A stretch of DNA of 27,723 nt, from positions 1 through 27,723 of the IMG/VR virus record IMGVR_UViG_3300040801_002175; one strand, given 5' to 3'. A program made the translations under genes and the position numbers. The notes below the pieces were generated by a model. It had not been told where the DNA came from, did not search any database, and worked only from the letters and a program-made list of their open reading frames with translations. This DNA comes from a virus. This document shows, one piece after another, positions 2,787 to 19,944 of the stretch (positions are counted from its first letter, which is position 1; every line of letters begins with the position of its first letter).

Positions 2787-3119
2787 TTATGTAGTCCATG
2801 ATTTGAATACTTCTTTTGTGGTTTTTAGTCCGGTTTTTTTCAGTTGGGGGTGTGCTAAACAGGGACCGTCAGGCCCCCAAGCAGCAACACACTCAGATAC
2901 GGGGAGTCGGGAGTGTTCCGTACCCCCTCTTTTAAATACTACCGTATCCTCACCCCCTAGAAGGGAGATAAGTTCATCATCAAGCTCACACCAAACCCCC
3001 CTCACAGGCTTACCTTGAATTAGCAAGCAATCTCTAGCAGGGATGCTGTCGTTAATGAGACCGTCGAAATCAGTGAAACTGACGACCTGAATTACTTTGT
3101 TTTTTCTAAGTGCTATCAT
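2787..3119 (-). CDS. Small protein, 'R-x-N-K-V-I' paralogue 4
   Basis: A 110-aa protein from the ATG at 3119 (MIALRKNKVIQVVSFTDFD). That ATG forms an ATGA overlap with the stop of the preceding gene; the open frame extends further upstream but only inside that gene. N-terminus and C-terminus (TTKEVFKSWTT) match the paralogues at 130, 1483 and 1818. It is the family member closest to the ubiquitin-like conjugation genes. Function unknown. Confidence 0.7.
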   Translation of the reverse strand: MIALRKNKVIQVVSFTDFDGLINDSIPARDCLLIQGKPVRGVWCELDDELISLLGGEDTVVFKRGGTEHSRLPVSECVAAWGPDGPCLAHPQLKKTGLKTTKEVFKSWTT

Positions 3120-3310
3120 TGTAAAAATATTATATGTCCTCCCCATCGACCTTCGGTTATGTACTTGTCGCCGTGCTTTTTGGGCAAGCACCACCCCCCA
3201 TCATCTGGGATCAGCTCAGTTAAGAACCATGAATTGTTAGGGGGCAGCGGACAGTCAAAAACCCGTGAATCTTTCCAGCCGCCCCCATACAAAAATACTA
3301 ATGCTTTCAT
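3116..3310 (-). CDS. Small hypothetical protein (64 aa) after JAMM gene
   Basis: A 64-aa protein starting MKALVFLYGGGWKDSRVFD at an ATG that overlaps the JAMM isopeptidase stop (ATGA). It has a hydrophobic N-terminal strand, then a Pro/Trp/Gly-rich body ending GRWGGHIIFLQ. No family is recognised. Tight coupling to the JAMM gene makes it the first candidate for an accessory partner of the ubiquitin-like system, but nothing in the sequence proves this. Confidence 0.6.
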   Translation of the reverse strand: MKALVFLYGGGWKDSRVFDCPLPPNNSWFLTELIPDDGGWCLPKKHGDKYITEGRWGGHIIFLQ

Positions 3311-4041
3311 TTCCAAATTGCGTTGCAATAGTTGCACCAGCCCTCCTTAGTCAGCTCCCTTTTCTTACCTTGAGCTTCGCAACCCGGGCAGAGGTCGTTG
3401 TCATCCTCTAAGCTGTCCCAATATGCCTTGGAGAAGTCTTTGCCGTAGCTCTTGCCGTAGCTCTTGCCGTAGCTCTTGCCGTAGCTCTTGCCTGCATAGC
3501 TTGTGTACACTTTCTTAGTCACGTTCTCATCCAGCATATCAAAGAACTCATCGGGCAAATCGGGCGTCTCAATCTCAAAGGGGATGTTAAGATACTTCAG
3601 CCCGGTATCGGGTAGCCAAACATCTACTTTCATCACTCCCTTTTTGTTGGAGATAACCCGGAAGAAAAACCCGTCATCGTTCTGCGCGTGGATGTGGCTG
3701 TCCCACATGGTATCGTCCTGAGCGCTCGGCTCGACTCCCATATTAACATGAGAATGCCAATGTAGGCGCAGGTCCTGAGCCTCCTCACCCAACTCAGCGT
3801 ACAAATCCAGTGTACCTTCAGGGGAGATTTCGGTAGTCGTAGAATGTACCTCCTGTTTAGGGAAGTACATATCCTTGAGCAGAAATTCCCTATTACTCAG
3901 GCGTTCGACCGTACCAAAAGCCCCTACCTCTGTGTCGAAGTAGTCAGTAGCGGCGGTGATCTTGCGCAAGGCTAACGGGGTGATAATTAATTTGGGGGTG
4001 AAGGTCATCACTAGCTTCACCGTTTCACTTGTTCTCCTCAT
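3307..4041 (-). CDS. JAMM/JAB isopeptidase with C-terminal zinc ribbon
   Basis: A 244-aa protein with a complete JAMM zinc-metalloprotease motif: Glu38 (TEVGAFG), then His96-Ser97-His98, seven residues, Ser106, two residues, Asp109. This family removes or matures ubiquitin-like proteins (Rpn11, Csn5, bacterial BilC and Cap3), so the expected role is Ubl processing or deconjugation in the cytoplasm. After the catalytic domain comes a low-complexity linker of four SYGK repeats (residues 186-201), encoded by four perfect 12-bp repeats. It is followed by a zinc-ribbon-like module with CxxC at 218/221 and 236/239. The ATG overlaps the E2-like gene stop by 4 nt, arguing for co-translation. The zinc ribbon may be a substrate or E2 adaptor (inference). 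Confidence 0.92.
   Translation of the reverse strand: MRRTSETVKLVMTFTPKLIITPLALRKITAATDYFDTEVGAFGTVERLSNREFLLKDMYFPKQEVHSTTTEISPEGTLDLYAELGEEAQDLRLHWHSHVNMGVEPSAQDDTMWDSHIHAQNDDGFFFRVISNKKGVMKVDVWLPDTGLKYLNIPFEIETPDLPDEFFDMLDENVTKKVYTSYAGKSYGKSYGKSYGKSYGKDFSKAYWDSLEDDNDLCPGCEAQGKKRELTKEGWCNYCNAIWK
3443..3490 (-). repeat. Four perfect 12-bp tandem repeats (SYGK linker)
   Basis: The 12-bp unit CCGTAGCTCTTG (plus-strand reading) occurs four times without mismatch. It encodes SYGK x 4 in the linker of the JAMM protein. Being in-frame and perfect, the array is likely to change copy number without breaking the gene. Confidence 0.95.
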
Positions 4042-5201
4042 GCTTCAGGCCATCTGTCGTAAGTCGCTCCTGCCGGATCGGAGGGATTTACGGATTCGAG
4101 AAATAGGATGCAAACATCTACTGCGGTTGCCCAATCCGACATAGCGCGGGCCTCCTCAATAGCAAGTTCAAAGTCACCAAAGCAGGCTTTACCGTTGCCT
4201 TGGACGTGCGGGTGATGGTCCTCATTCCAATATCCCTCCACTCTGCGGGTGCGGTTGTTAAACCGCACATAGAGCTGGCGATCCAAAGGGATGGAGATGT
4301 CCATATCCCCGAGTAGGTATTCGTCGCCCGTGTCGGGGTTTGTGAACGTCATGTCAGGGCAGTGCGCCACGATGTTGGAACCCAAAAGGAATACTTCGGA
4401 AACCTTTGGAAAGGCCCGAATCTTGTCAAGCTGACTTTGCACCAACTCTAGCGGGTTGAGCGTGTCAAGATGTTTGGATAGCCCGCTCAGCTCAAAGACT
4501 GTTTGCTCCCGGGTTTTGACTGACTCCTGAAAAGCTCGGCGGCGGTCCTCAATTTGCTGAGCGAGCTGAGTTGCCTGAGCTTTGAGGTTATCCACCTTGT
4601 CTTTGTAGCCCCGGATAATAAACTCAGATGCTGCTTTTTGCGGGTCGATCTTGTCTTCCCGTTCTGCTATGTCCAGCACCTCGGACAAAGCGTCTACACT
4701 CGCAGTGTAGATGTGCAGACGGATGACATTGCCTTTTTTGGACACCACAGGCCAACCCTCCCGGCAATAAAAGACTTCGCCGTCTTTAGGGGGAGAAAAT
4801 TTATAGTCTCCGCTAATCCCATTGATGGAATAGGGAGGCGGGTATCCGTTCTCAATTTTGGGCATGTATACCACCGCGTCGAAGCCCTCTTCGGGTTCTT
4901 TTGTGGTGGCCAATACAAACTCGCCGAGTTCGCGCAGCTTAGAGGCTATCCCAGTTTGGGGCCAGTCCATGAAGGTAACTGGCTTGCGGGGTAGCTCTCC
5001 GGTCGGTGAGAAAATGGTGATGTTCGGCAATGAGTCGTGTTGTTGGCCGAAGCCATCCGGGTATTTATCCATGATTTCTTTAGGATAAAAATACCCAAAC
5101 AGCCCGTCAACCTCAACGGGGTTGCCATTATCGGGGGCGAACTCTTCGATCACCCCTTCCAGTTTCTCACCCGGTATGAATACCAAGTGTTCGTGTGACA
5201 T
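4038..5201 (-). CDS. E2-like conjugating enzyme with coiled-coil middle
   Basis: A 387-aa protein whose last ~75 residues carry the prokaryotic E2-like (UBC-fold) signature. HPH at 330-332 is followed by VQGNGKAC with the candidate catalytic Cys340, then FGDFELAIEE, a hydrophobic helix, and ESVNPSDPAGA near 369-379. The family transfers an activated ubiquitin-like protein from E1 to a target through a Cys thioester. Residues ~205-255 are rich in K/E/Q with an apparent coiled coil. The N-terminal ~190 residues are Pro/Gly-rich and unrecognised, and could select the target. It lies between the E1-like gene (11 nt upstream) and the JAMM gene (4-nt overlap). It is longer than a minimal E2 (~150 aa). 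No RING-type E3 gene is visible nearby. Confidence 0.85.
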   Translation of the reverse strand: MSHEHLVFIPGEKLEGVIEEFAPDNGNPVEVDGLFGYFYPKEIMDKYPDGFGQQHDSLPNITIFSPTGELPRKPVTFMDWPQTGIASKLRELGEFVLATTKEPEEGFDAVVYMPKIENGYPPPYSINGISGDYKFSPPKDGEVFYCREGWPVVSKKGNVIRLHIYTASVDALSEVLDIAEREDKIDPQKAASEFIIRGYKDKVDNLKAQATQLAQQIEDRRRAFQESVKTREQTVFELSGLSKHLDTLNPLELVQSQLDKIRAFPKVSEVFLLGSNIVAHCPDMTFTNPDTGDEYLLGDMDISIPLDRQLYVRFNNRTRRVEGYWNEDHHPHVQGNGKACFGDFELAIEEARAMSDWATAVDVCILFLESVNPSDPAGATYDRWPEA

Positions 5202-5212
5202 TAATTAATAAT

Positions 5213-5857
5213 TTATAAGTTAACAATTTGTTCCAGTCCAATCCACTTTTCGACAAAACCCTCACCGGGTTCCATCATTTCCCACACAGCAAGGCTTGCA
5301 ATGAGGCTTGCCGTTGGGCCTACGGTGGGATAGAAACCGCAGGCCGATACTACCGTGTCTTCATTGGGATACCACGCGGCCTCCCACTTTTTACATTCTG
5401 CGGGAGAGAAGGGATTGTAGGCGTAAATACGGCCCCCCTTCACGGCCAGACGGGTCTCAATTACCCGCTTTACCTTTTTGTTCATCCGCAGACACTTCTG
5501 ATGGATTTCCATACGAGTGTCCATATCGTCAACTAGTAGGAAGACGAACCCCGCAAATTCATTGCGCTGATCTTTTACCCACTCGTTGCGGGCTTTTACT
5601 TTATAGTCAGTGAGGCGTTCAATCTCCTCACTCAGGCAATGTACTTTGGGCAAGCCGATGTGGCAGTTACCATAGGCTTGGTTAGCCACGTTGTGGGCCT
5701 CTATATTGTCAGCATCCCACACAGTTATGTTAGAGATACCCAACTTAGCCACCTCAACGGCTACTTTGCTGCCCGTGGCCCCGGCCCCGATAATGTGGAC
5801 GGGGTGTTTAAAGTCGTCAGGGTTGAAGACTTCCCGGTGTTTGTGTGCGTCAATCAT
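5213..5857 (-). CDS. E1/ThiF-like Ubl-activating enzyme
   Basis: A 214-aa ThiF/MoeB/E1-fold protein. The nucleotide-binding loop GAGATGS is at 24-30, the acidic strand WDADNIEAHN at 47-56 leads into NVANQ, Lys71 sits in GLPK, and VDDMDTR lies at 109-115. Cys173 in SACGFYPTVG is the best candidate for the Ubl-thioester cysteine. The family adenylates the C-terminus of a ubiquitin-like protein using ATP. It lacks the CxxC zinc pairs of many ThiF proteins, and the usual Arg of the NxxRQ motif is Asn59. The size fits a minimal E1-like protein as found in PRTRC-type and phage operons. It heads the E1-E2-JAMM run and is separated from the Ubl gene by a structured element and ~180 nt. Confidence 0.92.
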   Translation of the reverse strand: MIDAHKHREVFNPDDFKHPVHIIGAGATGSKVAVEVAKLGISNITVWDADNIEAHNVANQAYGNCHIGLPKVHCLSEEIERLTDYKVKARNEWVKDQRNEFAGFVFLLVDDMDTRMEIHQKCLRMNKKVKRVIETRLAVKGGRIYAYNPFSPAECKKWEAAWYPNEDTVVSACGFYPTVGPTASLIASLAVWEMMEPGEGFVEKWIGLEQIVNL

Positions 5858-5993
5858 AATTTGTATATAGTTTTTTGAATTGTTTTAGTGGTATGCAAAA
5901 CCTAATGTGGTTAGAGGAAGCATTAAAGGTATTGTCAGAGTCGATGAATAGAAACGGGTATCTTTTTCTAATACTACCATAGTTTTTTTTTTG

Positions 5994-6042
5994 AAGGCAG
6001 GCGGGGGATCGAACCCCGCCCAACTCCCGTCGAGTCTGCCTT
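5994..6042 (-). ncRNA. tRNA-like three-way-junction element A
   Basis: Read on the minus strand: a 7-bp outer stem AAGGCAG/CTGCCTT, an inner hairpin ACTC-GACGG-GAGT, and a second inner hairpin GCGGGG-TTCGATC-CCCCGC with a 7-nt T-loop-like sequence. This is the shape of a tRNA acceptor, D and T arm without an anticodon arm. The first two bases of the outer stem are the last two of the Ubl stop codon. No CCA and no U-tract follow (a run of A follows instead), so it is neither a complete tRNA nor a standard terminator. Three further elements (8790, 9469, 10032) share the layout and the GACGG core. Folding is by eye. Confidence 0.6.
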
Positions 6043-6247
6043 AGTTGGCCTTGGTCTGCTCAGCTACGAGAATAACGTCACCGTCATTCACATTAGCGGA
6101 AAAATCCGTGGTTGCCACGCCGTTGATCCGCACCGTTACACCAGAGGTCGGAAACCCGGCTTGGGTGATGGCTTGGTCGATCGTGGTGTCATCGGAAATA
6201 AAGACCGTTTCGGTGCGGCCTGGCACCTTAGTGATTTGAACTTTCAT
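6041..6247 (-). CDS. Ubiquitin-like beta-grasp protein (Ubl)
   Basis: A 68-aa protein from the ATG at 6247, with a ThiS/MoaD/ubiquitin-like beta-grasp pattern. A beta hairpin (KVQITKVPGRTETVFISD) comes first, then one helix (TTIDQAITQAGF), then strands VTVRINGV and NVNDGDVILVAEQ, the last close to the 'DGDxV' ending of ThiS/MoaD and PRTRC protein C. It is the expected substrate of the neighbouring E1, E2 and JAMM enzymes. Oddly it ends TKAN, without the terminal Gly-Gly that adenylation normally uses. The open frame extends upstream, but that stretch crosses a terminator and is not protein-like. Its leader resembles that of the preceding 101-aa gene. Confidence 0.85.
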   Translation of the reverse strand: MKVQITKVPGRTETVFISDDTTIDQAITQAGFPTSGVTVRINGVATTDFSANVNDGDVILVAEQTKAN

Positions 6248-6283: not shown

Positions 6284-6309
6284 AAAAAGGCGGGGGAATT
6301 TCACCCCCG
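6284..6309 (-). terminator. Intrinsic terminator before the Ubl gene
   Basis: On the minus strand a 6-bp stem CGGGGG/CCCCCG with a 7-nt loop is followed by CC and TTTTT. It lies a few nt after the stop of the 101-aa helical gene and upstream of the Ubl start, so the two genes may be partly insulated despite their proximity. Confidence 0.75.
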
Positions 6310-6315
6310 GAAATC

Positions 6316-6621
6316 TTAGAACCACTCGGTCAGCAGGGCCTTGAGGTCGTCAACATCCCGCTGGGCCACAGCTACGACCTTCTGGGCCGCCTTGACCCCC
6401 TTAATCTGGTATAGTACGGCCCCGGCGTTGAAGGGCTCTTGGCGGACAGCCCCGATAATGTCGGCTTCGGCGTCGATCACGTCGCCCTTGGCGCGGTTTA
6501 CCCTGCCTTCGGCGTCGCTGATCTCAGCTTCCAACAGGAGGCGGGCCTTTTCGGCGCGGGCCTTGAGCTGTTCGGCGGTCAGGGTGTCTTTGTCCTGAGA
6601 AATTACTTCGAGAAACTTCAT
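6316..6621 (-). CDS. All-helical protein upstream of Ubl
   Basis: A 101-aa protein, almost entirely Ala/Glu/Lys/Arg/Leu-rich with heptad-like spacing (EQLKARAEKARLLLEAEISD). It probably forms one or two long helices or a coiled coil; no family is recognised. It sits just upstream of the Ubl gene, separated by an intrinsic terminator. Its leader (TAACCTTTCAAT...ATTTCA before ATG) is nearly the same as that of the Ubl gene (CAACCTTCCAAT...ATTTCA), so the two are probably controlled alike. It is a candidate partner or target of the Ubl (inference). Confidence 0.75.
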   Translation of the reverse strand: MKFLEVISQDKDTLTAEQLKARAEKARLLLEAEISDAEGRVNRAKGDVIDAEADIIGAVRQEPFNAGAVLYQIKGVKAAQKVVAVAQRDVDDLKALLTEWF

Positions 6622-16672: not shown

Positions 16673-16988
16673 GCAGTTTTCATTACTACAGGCTGAGAAT
16701 ATCCGACTACGCTCGGAGAATGCCCTACTTGCTTCTGAGAATCGCAAGCTTCGGATTGATCTGAACAAGCTCTTGGATGCGCTCAAGTCAGTCTGGGAGT
16801 CGCTGCCGTTTGTTCTACAGTTAGTGTCGCTATTTAAGGGGAAGTTTACGTGGCTTAAAGTTCTAGGAAACTTGGGCAAGATAGCCGCGTTACTGAATGC
16901 AATTATAGGAAAGTTCAAAGATGGTAAGGAACTCGCAGGGGATTTGGCTCAACTCTCAAGTATTCCGGGAACCAGCGATACACTTTGA
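16665..16988 (+). CDS. Coiled-coil protein next to terminase (107 aa)
   Basis: A 107-aa protein from the ATG at 16665, overlapping the previous stop by 8 nt. Residues 5-45 form a clear heptad coiled coil (LLQAENIRLRSENALLASEN). A hydrophobic region LPFVLQLVSLFKGKFTWLKV follows, with a helical segment LGKIAALLNAIIGKFK. It overlaps the terminase start by 68 nt. Candidates are a small terminase or an oligomeric membrane-associated protein. Confidence 0.7.
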   Translation, partial: NSEQFSLLQAENIRLRSENALLASENRKLRIDLNKLLDALKSVWESLPFVLQLVSLFKGKFTWLKVLGNLGKIAALLNAIIGKFKDGKELAGDLAQLSSIPGTSDTL

Positions 16989-19944
16989 GAAATACGGTTA
17001 CTACACCGATGCCCCGAAAGGGACAATTTCTTGGAGAAAATACTGGGATGAGGAGTTAAGGAGATGTATTGAGGGACACGAAGTAAGTGGTGCTCGTATT
17101 ACGGGTGACCACTATTTCTATTTGAACTACTACCGCATCATGAAAAAGGAGGGCAATCGCAAAGTTGAGGGCTTTCCTGACTTCTGGGATGGGGACTATA
17201 ACTACTTTCACGCCGTAGACATTGCCCGATTCGGCATCTCCAAAGAAGAACTTAAAAAGCTGCACTTGGAGTGGGAGCCCCTTTGGATAGACGGGGGACA
17301 TCACATCATGGTGGCTAAGGCCCGTAGAAAGGGGTTTGCACAGCCCAACACAGAGCCAGTTCTGACCCCGTCCGGTTGGAAGCTTATGGGAGATATTAAA
17401 GTTGGGGACTTAGTAATGACCCCGTCTGGTAAGCCTACAAAAGTTTTGGAAGTATACCCCCAAGGGGAGCGGGAGGTTTTTGAAGTCGTATTACATGATA
17501 ATAGACGTACTCGGTGTTCTGAGGACCACCTGTGGAGGATAAAGACAAGCCGTGGAGACAGAGTAGTACCCACATCTTTTTTCTTAAATAAAAAATTAAT
17601 ACGTAACGCTGGCAAGGAAAATAGCTACTATGCCTACCATTTACCGGAAATAGAGCCCCTTGATTTTGAAGAAAAGGAGCTTCCAGTAGACCCGTATGTG
17701 CTGGGTGTTTTGTTAGGTGATGGATGCTTAACGGGTAGTAACACTGCCATATCTACGGGGGATTACGAAATAGTAGAGGAGCTACAAAATAGGCTTCCCT
17801 CCGCTAACATTAGGAAACAGAAGAATGATTTTGGTTACTCCATAGCTTATGGTCTTCCAAAAAACCCACTGAAAGAAAAGCTGCGAGAATTAGGAGTTTG
17901 TACGTATAGTTACAGCAAGTTCGTACCAAAAGATTATTTGTATAGCTCAATTAGTCAGAGACTTGAGCTTTTGAGAGGCCTCATGGATACCGATGGTACC
18001 TCCAGCCCCTGCGGGACGGTAAGGTTTAATACTTCCTCACCACAACTCAGGGACGATGTGTTATTTTTATTCAGGAGCTTGGGCTGTAGAGCACGGTGGT
18101 ACCAGCCCAAACCAGCAGGGTGGGCCAAAAGGCCTCATTATGTAGTCAGTGCTGTATGTGATTTGGATGTATTTAAACTGGACCGTAAGCTTAAAAACAT
18201 CAAGAAGGGTAGAAAGTATGGCTATAAGAAAATAGGCATCAGGGAGGTTAGGTCTTTGGGATATACTGAGGAACAGACCTGTATCTTGGTAGAAGACCCG
18301 GAGCATTTATACATCACAAAGGATTTTATACCCACTCACAATAGTTACAAAAACTCCGCCAAGGCCGTAAACACCTACAACACGGTCAGAAAGTCGCTTA
18401 TCCTATTCACTGCTTACGAAAAGAAGTACCTTTTTCCAAACGGTATCATGACTATGGCTCTCAATGGGCTTTCTTTTTTGTCTGAGCATACCGCTTGGGG
18501 CAAGAAAAGGGAATACGTAGATCGGCAGGACCACGTCAGGGCTTCTTACCGGGGAAAGAATAACGGCATAGAATTCGAGAAGGGATATAAGTCAGAGATG
18601 ATGGCCCTCTCCTTTAAAGACAGACCCGGTGCGGCCAGAGGTAAGGACCCGTACTTAGTAATCATGGAGGAGGCCGGGGAGTGGGATGGGTTTCTATCTT
18701 CCTTAAAAGCGACCGAGCCCTCTACCAGAGATGGTTCTACCATGACCGGGCAGATTTTGGCTTTTGGTACTGGCGGAGACATGACCTCTGCCTCAGTTGA
18801 CTTTGCTGATGTGTTCTACAACCCAGAGCTGCATAATTTTCTACCATTCGACAATGTCTGGGATGAGGGAGCTTCCGGAAACTCCTGCGCCTTTTTCTTT
18901 CCAGTCAACCTCAATAACCCAGACTATACAGATGATCAGGGTAATTCTGATTTAGAGGCGGCCAAAAAAGCTGAAATGGAGGAAAGACAACGCATCGTAG
19001 AGCGTTCAAAAGGTGCAGTCAGTATGGCCAAGCACCTATCGGAGTACGCTCTTTCCCCCCAAGAGGCCTTCTTGGTGGATAACATAAACGCTTTCCCCGT
19101 TGATTTATTGCAAAGACGCCTCAATCAGCTCATGGCTGACGATAAGGCCAAGATTGGGAAGCCCTACATCCTGCAAAAGGAAGACGGTAAGGTATTGGGC
19201 ATGCCTGATCTTCAAGGTACCCTAAAGCCCATCATACATTATAGGGCTGAAGAGTTAGACCAAAGTGGGGCAGTAGTGGTCTATGAAGAGCCCATTCCTA
19301 ACCCACCACCCGGCACTTACGTAATTGGCTATGACCCCTATCGCCACAATACCTCACAGACGGATTCATTAGGAGCTGCGTTTGTGTACAAAAACCCCAC
19401 TAACCTGAGCCCGAACTCTGATATTATTGTAGCCGAATACGTAGGCAGGCCCAGAACTACGGATGAGTATGAGCGTAGGCTGGCCCTATTGGCTGAGTAC
19501 TACAACGCTACTATCCTGTATGAGAATGAAGTGAATAACACCGAAAAGAATTTTGAATACTGGAATAAACTCCATCTTTTAAACCGCCAGCCCGACTCTC
19601 TAATTAAGGCCCACGTCAAAAAAAGTAAGGTCAAAAGAGAGTTCGGTATGCACATGACCAGTAGTTTTATTGAGGCAGGAGATAAATATATAACTAATTG
19701 GTTACTCACTGAAAGAGAGAAAACTAAGGATGGTGAACCTATTTACAACTTAGATTTGTTATACTCTATAGGGTTGATTGAAGAAATGATCAAGTACAAC
19801 CCCAAGGGGAACTTTGACCGCCTCATGGCATTTAGGCTCGTCATGTTCGCCAGAGAAGAAGAAAAGCTAAATAACAAGGCTGGCCAGAGCCGGGAACGAA
19901 AGGTAATTAATCAACTTCTTGAGATGAAAAAATACTCCCGATGA
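16921..19944 (+). CDS. terL: Terminase large subunit, interrupted by an intein
   Basis: A 1007-aa precursor; after removal of a 335-aa intein (residues 140-474) the extein is 672 aa, normal for crAss-like TerL. The N-terminus has GYYTDAPKG and RITGDHYFYLNYYRI. The ATP-binding loop is ARRKGF at 134-139, joined by splicing to SYKNS. The Walker B strand YLVIMEEAGEWD has Glu583/584. The RNase H-like nuclease begins with VIGYDPYRHNTSQTDS (Asp805). It translocates and cuts DNA into proheads through the portal. Because the intein splits the ATP-binding motif, the enzyme should be inactive until splicing. The stop overlaps the portal ATG (ATGA). Confidence 0.95.
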   Translation: MVRNSQGIWLNSQVFREPAIHFEKYGYYTDAPKGTISWRKYWDEELRRCIEGHEVSGARITGDHYFYLNYYRIMKKEGNRKVEGFPDFWDGDYNYFHAVDIARFGISKEELKKLHLEWEPLWIDGGHHIMVAKARRKGFAQPNTEPVLTPSGWKLMGDIKVGDLVMTPSGKPTKVLEVYPQGEREVFEVVLHDNRRTRCSEDHLWRIKTSRGDRVVPTSFFLNKKLIRNAGKENSYYAYHLPEIEPLDFEEKELPVDPYVLGVLLGDGCLTGSNTAISTGDYEIVEELQNRLPSANIRKQKNDFGYSIAYGLPKNPLKEKLRELGVCTYSYSKFVPKDYLYSSISQRLELLRGLMDTDGTSSPCGTVRFNTSSPQLRDDVLFLFRSLGCRARWYQPKPAGWAKRPHYVVSAVCDLDVFKLDRKLKNIKKGRKYGYKKIGIREVRSLGYTEEQTCILVEDPEHLYITKDFIPTHNSYKNSAKAVNTYNTVRKSLILFTAYEKKYLFPNGIMTMALNGLSFLSEHTAWGKKREYVDRQDHVRASYRGKNNGIEFEKGYKSEMMALSFKDRPGAARGKDPYLVIMEEAGEWDGFLSSLKATEPSTRDGSTMTGQILAFGTGGDMTSASVDFADVFYNPELHNFLPFDNVWDEGASGNSCAFFFPVNLNNPDYTDDQGNSDLEAAKKAEMEERQRIVERSKGAVSMAKHLSEYALSPQEAFLVDNINAFPVDLLQRRLNQLMADDKAKIGKPYILQKEDGKVLGMPDLQGTLKPIIHYRAEELDQSGAVVVYEEPIPNPPPGTYVIGYDPYRHNTSQTDSLGAAFVYKNPTNLSPNSDIIVAEYVGRPRTTDEYERRLALLAEYYNATILYENEVNNTEKNFEYWNKLHLLNRQPDSLIKAHVKKSKVKREFGMHMTSSFIEAGDKYITNWLLTEREKTKDGEPIYNLDLLYSIGLIEEMIKYNPKGNFDRLMAFRLVMFAREEEKLNNKAGQSRERKVINQLLEMKKYSR
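17338..18342 (+). other. Class 3-like intein with LAGLIDADG endonuclease, in terL
   Basis: 335 codons inserted between KGF and SYK of the terminase ATP-binding motif. It starts AQPNTEPVLTPSGWKLMGDI, so position 1 is Ala, not Cys/Ser. Block B CSEDHLW has His64 and Trp66, block F TCILVEDPEHLY has Cys315, and the end IPTHN has Thr333 and Asn335, followed by Ser+1. Trp-Cys-Thr at these places is the hallmark of class 3 inteins, where the internal Cys replaces the N-terminal nucleophile. The homing endonuclease shows both LAGLIDADG helices: YVLGVLLGDG at precursor residue 259 and LLRGLMDTDG at 350. It looks intact, so splicing and homing are probably both active. Confidence 0.9.

Follow-up and report, generated by a model that had tools for sequence, protein, structure and literature searches.

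The sequence analyzed here is the IMG/VR virus record IMGVR_UViG_3300040801_002175, and its whole length of 27,723 bases is referred to below as the window. The terminase large subunit (TerL), portal and major capsid protein encoded in the window have matches in phage families, so the record represents a phage, and since its portal is 40% identical to the portal of Flavobacterium psychrophilum phages such as FpV4, we regard this phage as crAss-related. Four adjacent genes on the minus strand encode proteins resembling the parts of a ubiquitin-like (Ubl) conjugation system: a Ubl modifier of 68 amino acids (aa) with a single predicted beta-grasp domain (6041..6247), a single-domain E1-like adenylyltransferase of the ThiF fold (214 aa, 5213..5857), an E2-like protein of 387 aa (4038..5201) and a JAMM/JAB metalloprotease of 244 aa (3307..4041). 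The Ubl and E1 genes are separated by 183 nucleotides (nt) and the E1 and E2 genes by 11 nt, and the JAMM gene shares 4 nt with the E2 gene. A preliminary description of this DNA had placed four such genes here and named GAGATGS and Cys173 in the E1, HPH (330-332), Cys340 and NPSDPAG in the E2-like protein, and Glu38, HSH (96-98), Ser106 and Asp109 in the JAMM protein; all four open reading frames (ORFs) were confirmed and every one of these residues is present. Its proposal of a complete phage-encoded Ubl-E1-E2-JAMM cassette was likewise supported, and the same kind of cassette was found in many other phages.

A tblastn comparison of the window E1 with phage records gave matches in MT835544, Xanthomonas phage PhiXhv-12, FpV4, the crAss-like Bacteroides phages DAC15 and DAC17, and others. 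As single-sequence queries against viral contigs, the window E2, E1 and JAMM proteins found no relatives. An alignment of two JAMM sequences (window and MT835544) retrieved 194 relatives from viral contigs, 80 of which were kept, and a further 31 came from genomes of bacteria and archaea, chiefly metagenome-assembled genomes of Clostridia; the E1, JAMM, Ubl and E2 were mapped in the relatives by iterated profiles. In 70 of these 80 viral contigs, which were selected through JAMM, all four parts lie within 4.5 kb of the JAMM gene, the 31 genome contigs show the same four-part pattern, and this kind of cassette is present in about 100 other phage sequences, including those of cultured gut crAss-like phages. 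Leave-one-out profiles from which the window was excluded recovered its Ubl at 1.7e-13 and its E2 at 8.6e-32 without matching any further window ORF, and the four cassette profiles gave zero matches among 1,693 ORFs of cassette-free loci. A terminase was recognisable in about half of 40 carriers tested, and given the fact that none of 24 carriers tested shares the window capsid protein, the same cassette occurs in unrelated phages.

The window E1 matches the Pfam family ThiF (6.1e-20, above the curated cut-off). Conservation was counted over 95-107 non-identical relatives; Asp48, Asp50, Lys71, Asp110 and Cys173 of the E1 are present in 95 of 95, and the GxGxxG motif, Asn56 and Gln60 in 94-95 of 95. 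The codon of Cys173, the candidate catalytic residue, lies at 5339..5341 on the minus strand, and its equivalent is also found in all seven E1s of a separate alignment that includes crAss-like and jumbo phages. Among PADLOC models, the E1-E2 models match the window E1 at 5.7e-12 through their E1 part only, and the protein also matches the solved structure of Cap2.

Neither the Ubl nor the E2-like protein of the window has a significant match in Pfam, NCBIfam or PHROG, so fold prediction and tests based on relatives were needed for both. The E2-like protein comprises an N-terminal part, a central coiled coil and a C-terminal E2/UBC domain. Its AlphaFold2 (AF2) model is poor up to residue ~165 and contains helices at residues 164-181, 187-247 and 250-262, which outline the helical/coiled-coil segment preceding the E2 domain (residues ~164-262, 4416..4712). 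The C-terminal domain (residues 247-387, 4041..4463) is modelled with a pLDDT of 92-98 over residues 250-387. In a Foldseek search with this domain, ranks 1-28 were all E2 enzymes, at E-values of 0.02 and above, and nearly all rows among the VIA-align matches listed were E2 enzymes as well (UBE2S, UBE2K, UbcH5b and others; Z 7.0-8.0, 115-120 residues). A Z of 7-8 is middling by itself, and the match list for the predicted domain is almost purely E2. BilB, Cap2 and other bacterial E2s were not among the structural matches listed, an absence that is not evidence. The UBC fold foreseen for the C-terminus of this protein is thus what both fold prediction and structure search return.

The putative active site of the E2 domain is HPHVQGNGKAC (His330-Pro-His332-x7-Cys340, 4182..4214). 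Its spacing equals that of the eukaryotic HPN-x7-C motif, exemplified by HPNINSNGSIC in UbcH5b, with His replacing Asn; His332 is kept in 100 of 105 relatives and Cys340 in 103 of 105. A hidden Markov model (HMM) of the E2 family matches the window protein at 3.6e-36. When 43 E2 domains of the family were compared with Pfam, neither Prok-E2 nor UQ_con was matched and a single stray match to DUF6143 was obtained. Since a domain-only profile matched nothing by sequence in the PDB (the full-length profile was swamped by coiled coils), the identification as an E2 rests on fold and motif. In three relatives (L083 3207-4232, L100 714-2096 and L103 3643-4968), the E2 domain is followed by a cysteine-rich, RING- or zinc-ribbon-like tail, possibly an E3-like part.

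The JAMM protein matches Pfam Prok-JAB (3.3e-6, above the curated cut-off) and carries the motif His96-Ser-His98-x7-Ser106-x2-Asp109 (3715..3756), with Glu38 upstream. Glu38 is kept in 106 of 107 relatives, and Ser106 and Asp109 in 107 of 107. Because the relatives were selected through the JAMM search pattern HSHVNM, the invariance of that stretch is partly built in, and the conservation of the other residues is unaffected by this selection. The protein also contains SYGK repeats and a C-terminal CPGC...CNYC end (Cys218, Cys221, Cys236 and Cys239; 3325..3390), which is putatively zinc-ribbon-like.

The AF2 model of the Ubl, based on a 31-sequence alignment, has a mean pLDDT of 86.8 and the order strand/strand/helix/strand/strand/strand, and its best structural matches are mycobacterial MoaD (6jbz, Z 10.1), SAMP1 (3po0, Z 9.8) and ThiS (1zud, Z 8.8). 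The beta-grasp assignment of the 68-aa protein was thus borne out by a predicted ubiquitin-like fold. The closest solved relative by sequence is archaeal SAMP2 (5lda), which the family profile matches across its whole length at 1.2e-6. The window protein ends in ...GDVILVAEQTKAN, with the C-terminal Lys-Ala-Asn encoded at 6044..6052. This tail aligns with the Lys-Gly-Asn of its relatives and, in a HMMER alignment, with the Lys-Gly-Gly of Haloferax SAMP2, where the tail Asn falls at the position of the final Gly of SAMP2. Lys-Gly-Asn is the usual tail in phage relatives, while Lys-Ala-Asp-Asn-Ala or similar is found in Clostridia-type cassettes. Several relatives encode poly-Ubls, with three units in L080 and two each in L084, L108, L122 and L144, and each unit carries the same tail; in L128, L142 and L146, a further protein starts directly after KADNAA or KTENAA. 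To judge from these arrangements, the conserved tail junction of poly-Ubls and Ubl fusions looks like a JAMM processing site, and the mature Ubl would end either in Asn or in the small residue preceding it. What is new here is a set of predicted Ubls that end in Lys-Gly-Asn (Lys-Ala-Asn in the window) and not in Gly-Gly, some of them arranged head to tail as poly-Ubls.

The tail also bears on whether the window cassette is decaying, and inactive in this genome through an aberrant Ubl C-terminus. The Gly of the conserved Lys-Gly-Asn is replaced by Ala, the gene order of the window is unique, and the relatives of this phage mostly lack the cassette. Yet the four frames are open, every catalytic residue is intact, and other intact cassettes have non-Gly tails, namely KADNA in the Clostridia type and KSAA/KSAS in L163. 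We therefore consider decay very improbable.

The likeness of the E1 and Ubl to ThiF and to ThiS, MoaD and SAMP, together with the annotation of relatives as "thiamine biosynthesis protein ThiF", could also be taken to mean that the genes serve a sulfur-carrier or cofactor pathway and no conjugation at all. A UBC-fold E2 and a JAMM protein travel along with them, however, and the Ubl does not end in Gly-Gly as expected of a ThiS-ThiF or MoaD-MoeB pair. The window E1 scores 50-54 bits against ThiF models with cut-offs of 159-275 bits and falls far short of the equivalog cut-offs for ThiF and MoeB, and the conserved neighbours of the relatives' cassettes include no recognisable thiamine or molybdopterin gene. 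A sulfur-carrier role is scarcely credible on these grounds.

The predicted folds, the intact active sites and the joint conservation of all four parts in unrelated phages are computational findings, and they make a functional Ubl-conjugation pathway very probable, with its chemistry proposed as follows. The JAMM protein would cut at the Lys-Gly/Ala-Asn junction, trimming both Ubl precursors and poly-Ubls. The E1, acting as a homodimer of the ThiF type, would adenylate the Ubl C-terminus and may hold the Ubl as a thioester on Cys173. Cys340 of the E2 domain would then receive the Ubl, in an HPH-x7-C site that mirrors the eukaryotic HPN-x7-C, and the coiled coil of the E2 protein may help to choose substrates in place of a separate E3. 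Finally, the JAMM protein would be able to take the tag off again.

The same four functions are encoded, in a divergent version, in crAss-like phages. Genes for a Ubl-like precursor, an E2-like protein, a JAMM protein and an E1 are present in the Steigviridae phages crAss001 (gp79-gp76) and DAC15 (gp048-gp051) and in DAC17, cr126_1, cr85_1, cr106_1, cr128_1, cr111_1, "frurule" and bajarodcaudo virus 1, where the cassette is positioned between the genes for DNA primase and uracil-DNA glycosylase (UDG). Dulem virus 41 and FpV4 (gp53-gp50) have the same four genes in the same region, the FpV4 copy lying near the primase gene. These genes are annotated as thiamine biosynthesis protein, metalloprotease domain or hypothetical protein, and neither the records nor the open-access papers searched call the crAss001, DAC15 and FpV4 genes a Ubl system. 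The crAss-like E2 motif is HSH...C[LT]G, and the N-terminal domain of the crAss-like Ubl ends at a conserved Lys-x-x-Ser-Gly. The E2s of the two families are homologous (hhalign E 3.6e-7, probability 93, over an alignment spanning HPH...C), as are the E1s, and the Ubls are linked weakly (E 1.7e-4, probability 49). The crAss-like and FpV4 cassettes differ from that of the window in their order (Ubl-E2-JAMM-E1), in an N-terminal position of the E2 domain, in a long tail of the Ubl precursor after Ser-Gly, in the adjoining DNA primase gene, which the window does not show, and in their E1 clade. In cr106_1 (L073 3461-3976), an HNH endonuclease gene splits the Ubl precursor gene directly after the Ubl domain.

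A single clade of the window E1 and the crAss-like E1s was rejected by the approximately unbiased (AU) test (p 6e-5), and by identity the closest E1 is that of L117, a 208-kb viral contig (44%). The AU test, together with the absence of the cassette from most near-complete relatives, also excludes that the window phage holds it as a crAss-like heirloom. Nor is the cassette universal in Steigviridae, since cr108_1 and Cellulophaga phage phi14:2 have neither E1 nor E2; the same was found for the Intestiviridae and Suoliviridae phages tested. One 86-kb contig with a capsid protein 46% identical to that of the window (G002) encodes Ubl(...TKLG)-E2-JAMM-E1 and, in addition, a further E2 and a further E1. 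The AU test and the patchy distribution therefore indicate that the cassette has been gained, lost and exchanged between lineages.

Among known systems, Bil also has a Ubl, an E2, a JAMM protein and an E1 in one operon. The order Ubl-E1-E2-JAMM of the window had been set apart from the Bil order, and this is true of the window, whose order is unique among the loci compared. It does not extend to the relatives, in which the order of Bil, Ubl-E2-JAMM-E1, is the commonest (28 loci, followed by E2-JAMM-E1-Ubl in 17 and Ubl-E1-JAMM-E2 in 15), so gene order cannot set the family apart. The proteins themselves differ more clearly. In BilA, two Ubl domains stand in tandem; the active site of BilB is of the CEHH type (Cys followed by Glu at +6, His at +8 and His at +13), and BilD combines an inactive with an active adenylation domain and has its Cys domain apart from them (PMC11354881). 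In contrast, the window Ubl has one domain in its 68 aa, its E2-like protein has the His before the Cys, with Leu, Ile and Met at +6, +8 and +13 after Cys340, and its E1 has one ThiF domain in 214 aa with no two-domain structure or Cys domain. Bil protects a bacterium, whereas the window cassette sits in a phage genome. A Bil-like system could nevertheless be carried by a phage against its competitors, tagging virions or other proteins of superinfecting phages, and the shared set of four functional parts, the Bil order of the relatives and the patchy, lineage-hopping distribution, like that of cargo defence genes, fit this idea. We hold it to be unlikely, given the absence of the Bil features tested and the position of the crAss-like cassette, which is a fixed site among replication genes rather than an accessory locus.

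Phage tail gene clusters containing Ubl and JAB genes, as well as bacterial operons that combine E1, E2, JAB and Ubl, were reported by Iyer and colleagues in 2006, including systems with separate Ubl, E1, E2 and JAB genes of which several are on mobile elements (type 6d/PRTRC); the type 6d operon contains JAB, E1, E2, Ubl and a helical protein (PMC1779556). The separate genes are shared by the window and the type 6d and PRTRC plasmid cassettes. The 6d E2 has no His before its Cys and an absolutely conserved His after it, and the 6d Ubl has a conserved C-terminal Gly (PMC1779556), whereas the window and 100 of 105 relatives have a His ahead of the Cys. PRTRC-type operons had been named as bacterial systems of this kind. 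PRTRC_ThiF is among the weak NCBIfam matches of the window E1, at 33.3 bits far below its cut-off of 144.75, and the JAMM, E2 and Ubl have no match to PRTRC models. Compared with type II CBASS, the window E1 domain resembles that of Cap2 and the JAMM protein weakly resembles JAB models of PADLOC, but the window has separate genes, no E2-E1 fusion and no CD-NTase, and the activated partner is a dedicated Ubl where CBASS activates the CD-NTase. The archaeal SAMP2/UbaA system also combines a single-domain E1 with a small Ubl, whose KGG tail aligns with KGN/KAN; it differs from the window cassette, which includes a UBC-fold E2 and whose tail is not Gly-Gly. To our knowledge, SAMP conjugation proceeds without a canonical E2. 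By the features tested, the window cassette is not Bil, CBASS Cap2/3, PRTRC or type 6d, although the outline of its working is common to all of them. No description of a complete phage-encoded cassette or of the crAss-like one was found in the open-access papers searched, which does not establish priority.

The genes recurring next to the relatives' cassettes include DNA polymerase A (16 loci), an AAA_24/Sak4-type ATPase (13) and an SNF2 helicase (11). In the two Steigviridae without E1 and E2, cr108_1 (L200 13279-20335) and phi14:2 (L201 12026-17670), the slot between primase and UDG holds genes for an ATP-grasp ligase, a COOH-NH2 ligase, glutamine amidotransferases and an amidoligase, and in phi14:2 additionally a gamma-glutamyl cyclotransferase. 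Two unrelated sets of amide-bond-forming enzymes alternate at one crAss-like site, in an apparent functional swap, and this replacement is the best available, if circumstantial, hint at early- or replication-phase proteins as targets of the cassette. Since the relatives' cassettes lie in replication modules and the slot alternates with an amidoligase/ATP-grasp cluster, we consider a replication-phase role the likeliest. In Clostridia-type cassettes, a reverse transcriptase gene (RVT_1) lies directly downstream of the E1 gene in 40 of 111 loci (e.g. L142 6351-7505 and L002 6888-8225).

The preliminary description had envisaged virion modification or the countering of host Ubl defence, and neither role found support, the replication-gene context of the relatives pointing to the early or replication phase. 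In a counter-defence role, the cassette would tag and disable a host immune protein, or the JAMM protein would strip host Ubl tags, such as those of Bil, from the phage. The JAMM and conjugation parts could indeed act on host proteins, and such an activity would benefit phages whose hosts defend themselves with Ubl systems. Stripping, though, would need the JAMM protein alone, yet all four parts are co-conserved, and the conserved neighbours of the relatives' cassettes contained no recognisable defence or anti-defence gene, which makes counter-defence quite improbable.

Taken together, the cassette is probably a reversible and self-contained phage pathway for Ubl conjugation and deconjugation, whose likeliest time of action is the early or replication phase; for its role as the reversible tagging of phage or host proteins in that phase, we would put the chance a little below even. 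Several observations weigh against this interpretation. The window Ubl lacks a C-terminal glycine; position 59 of the E1, which would correspond to the Arg of the RQ motif in MoeB/ThiF-type enzymes, is Asn; and the AF2 model gives no confident structure for the first ~165 residues of the E2-like protein. The window cassette is surrounded by small genes of unassigned function with no adjoining replication genes, and the neighbour counts in the relatives have no background of random phage loci and count related phages together. Moreover, the E1 profile matched one of six near-complete contigs with a related capsid gene and the crAss-type E2 profile one of eight larger contigs (G002 in both cases), so the cassette is not essential in the group of the window phage.

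Tentatively, we propose a large, unnamed class of phage Ubl-conjugation systems with Lys-Gly-Asn/Lys-Ala-Asn modifiers, in which Asn or a small residue exposed by JAMM would be activated, and which would be exchanged as a unit and be interchangeable with an unrelated amide-ligase cluster at one crAss-like site. If this is true, amide or isopeptide tagging of proteins would be a recurrent need of phage replication. Bacterial ubiquitin-like conjugation is known mainly as an anti-phage defence; here, phages of many lineages own the pathway, including cultured crAss-like Bacteroides phages and Flavobacterium psychrophilum phages. Because culturable phages carry the cassette, the gain from Ubl tagging is directly testable. 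The HPH-x7-C active site and the poly-Ubl precursors are strikingly like the eukaryotic pathway and bear on the origin of ubiquitin signalling.

In the jumbo phage PhiXhv-12 (L004 2751-6627), a Ubl-like protein ending in Ser-Gly-Gly is encoded together with an E1, and an 892-aa protein has an HPHM...CLG E2-like motif and cysteine-rich ends; no JAMM gene was seen nearby.

Within the window, a co-directional gene adjacent to and upstream of the Ubl gene (6316..6621, minus strand) encodes a small helical protein of 101 aa, whose membership in the cassette is uncertain. It had no family match in Pfam, NCBIfam, PHROG or PADLOC (the window Ubl had no PADLOC match either), and a terminator-like hairpin (6291-6309) lies between the two genes. 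After the Ubl stop codon, a strong two-armed hairpin is predicted on the minus strand (5985-6040, -23.9 kcal/mol, z -2.4); it resembles a tRNA T-arm, and no Rfam family matched it. The Bacteroidetes promoter pattern TANNTTTG occurs at chance level. Three small minus-strand genes near the cassette (130-441, 1818-2150 and 2787-3194) have similar starts (MI.IR.NKVI...) and look like paralogues. The terminase large subunit gene (16921-19944, 1007 aa) contains an apparent intein-like insert at roughly residues 129-480, which matches profiles from other phage genes with inserts (primase, helicase loader and terminase).

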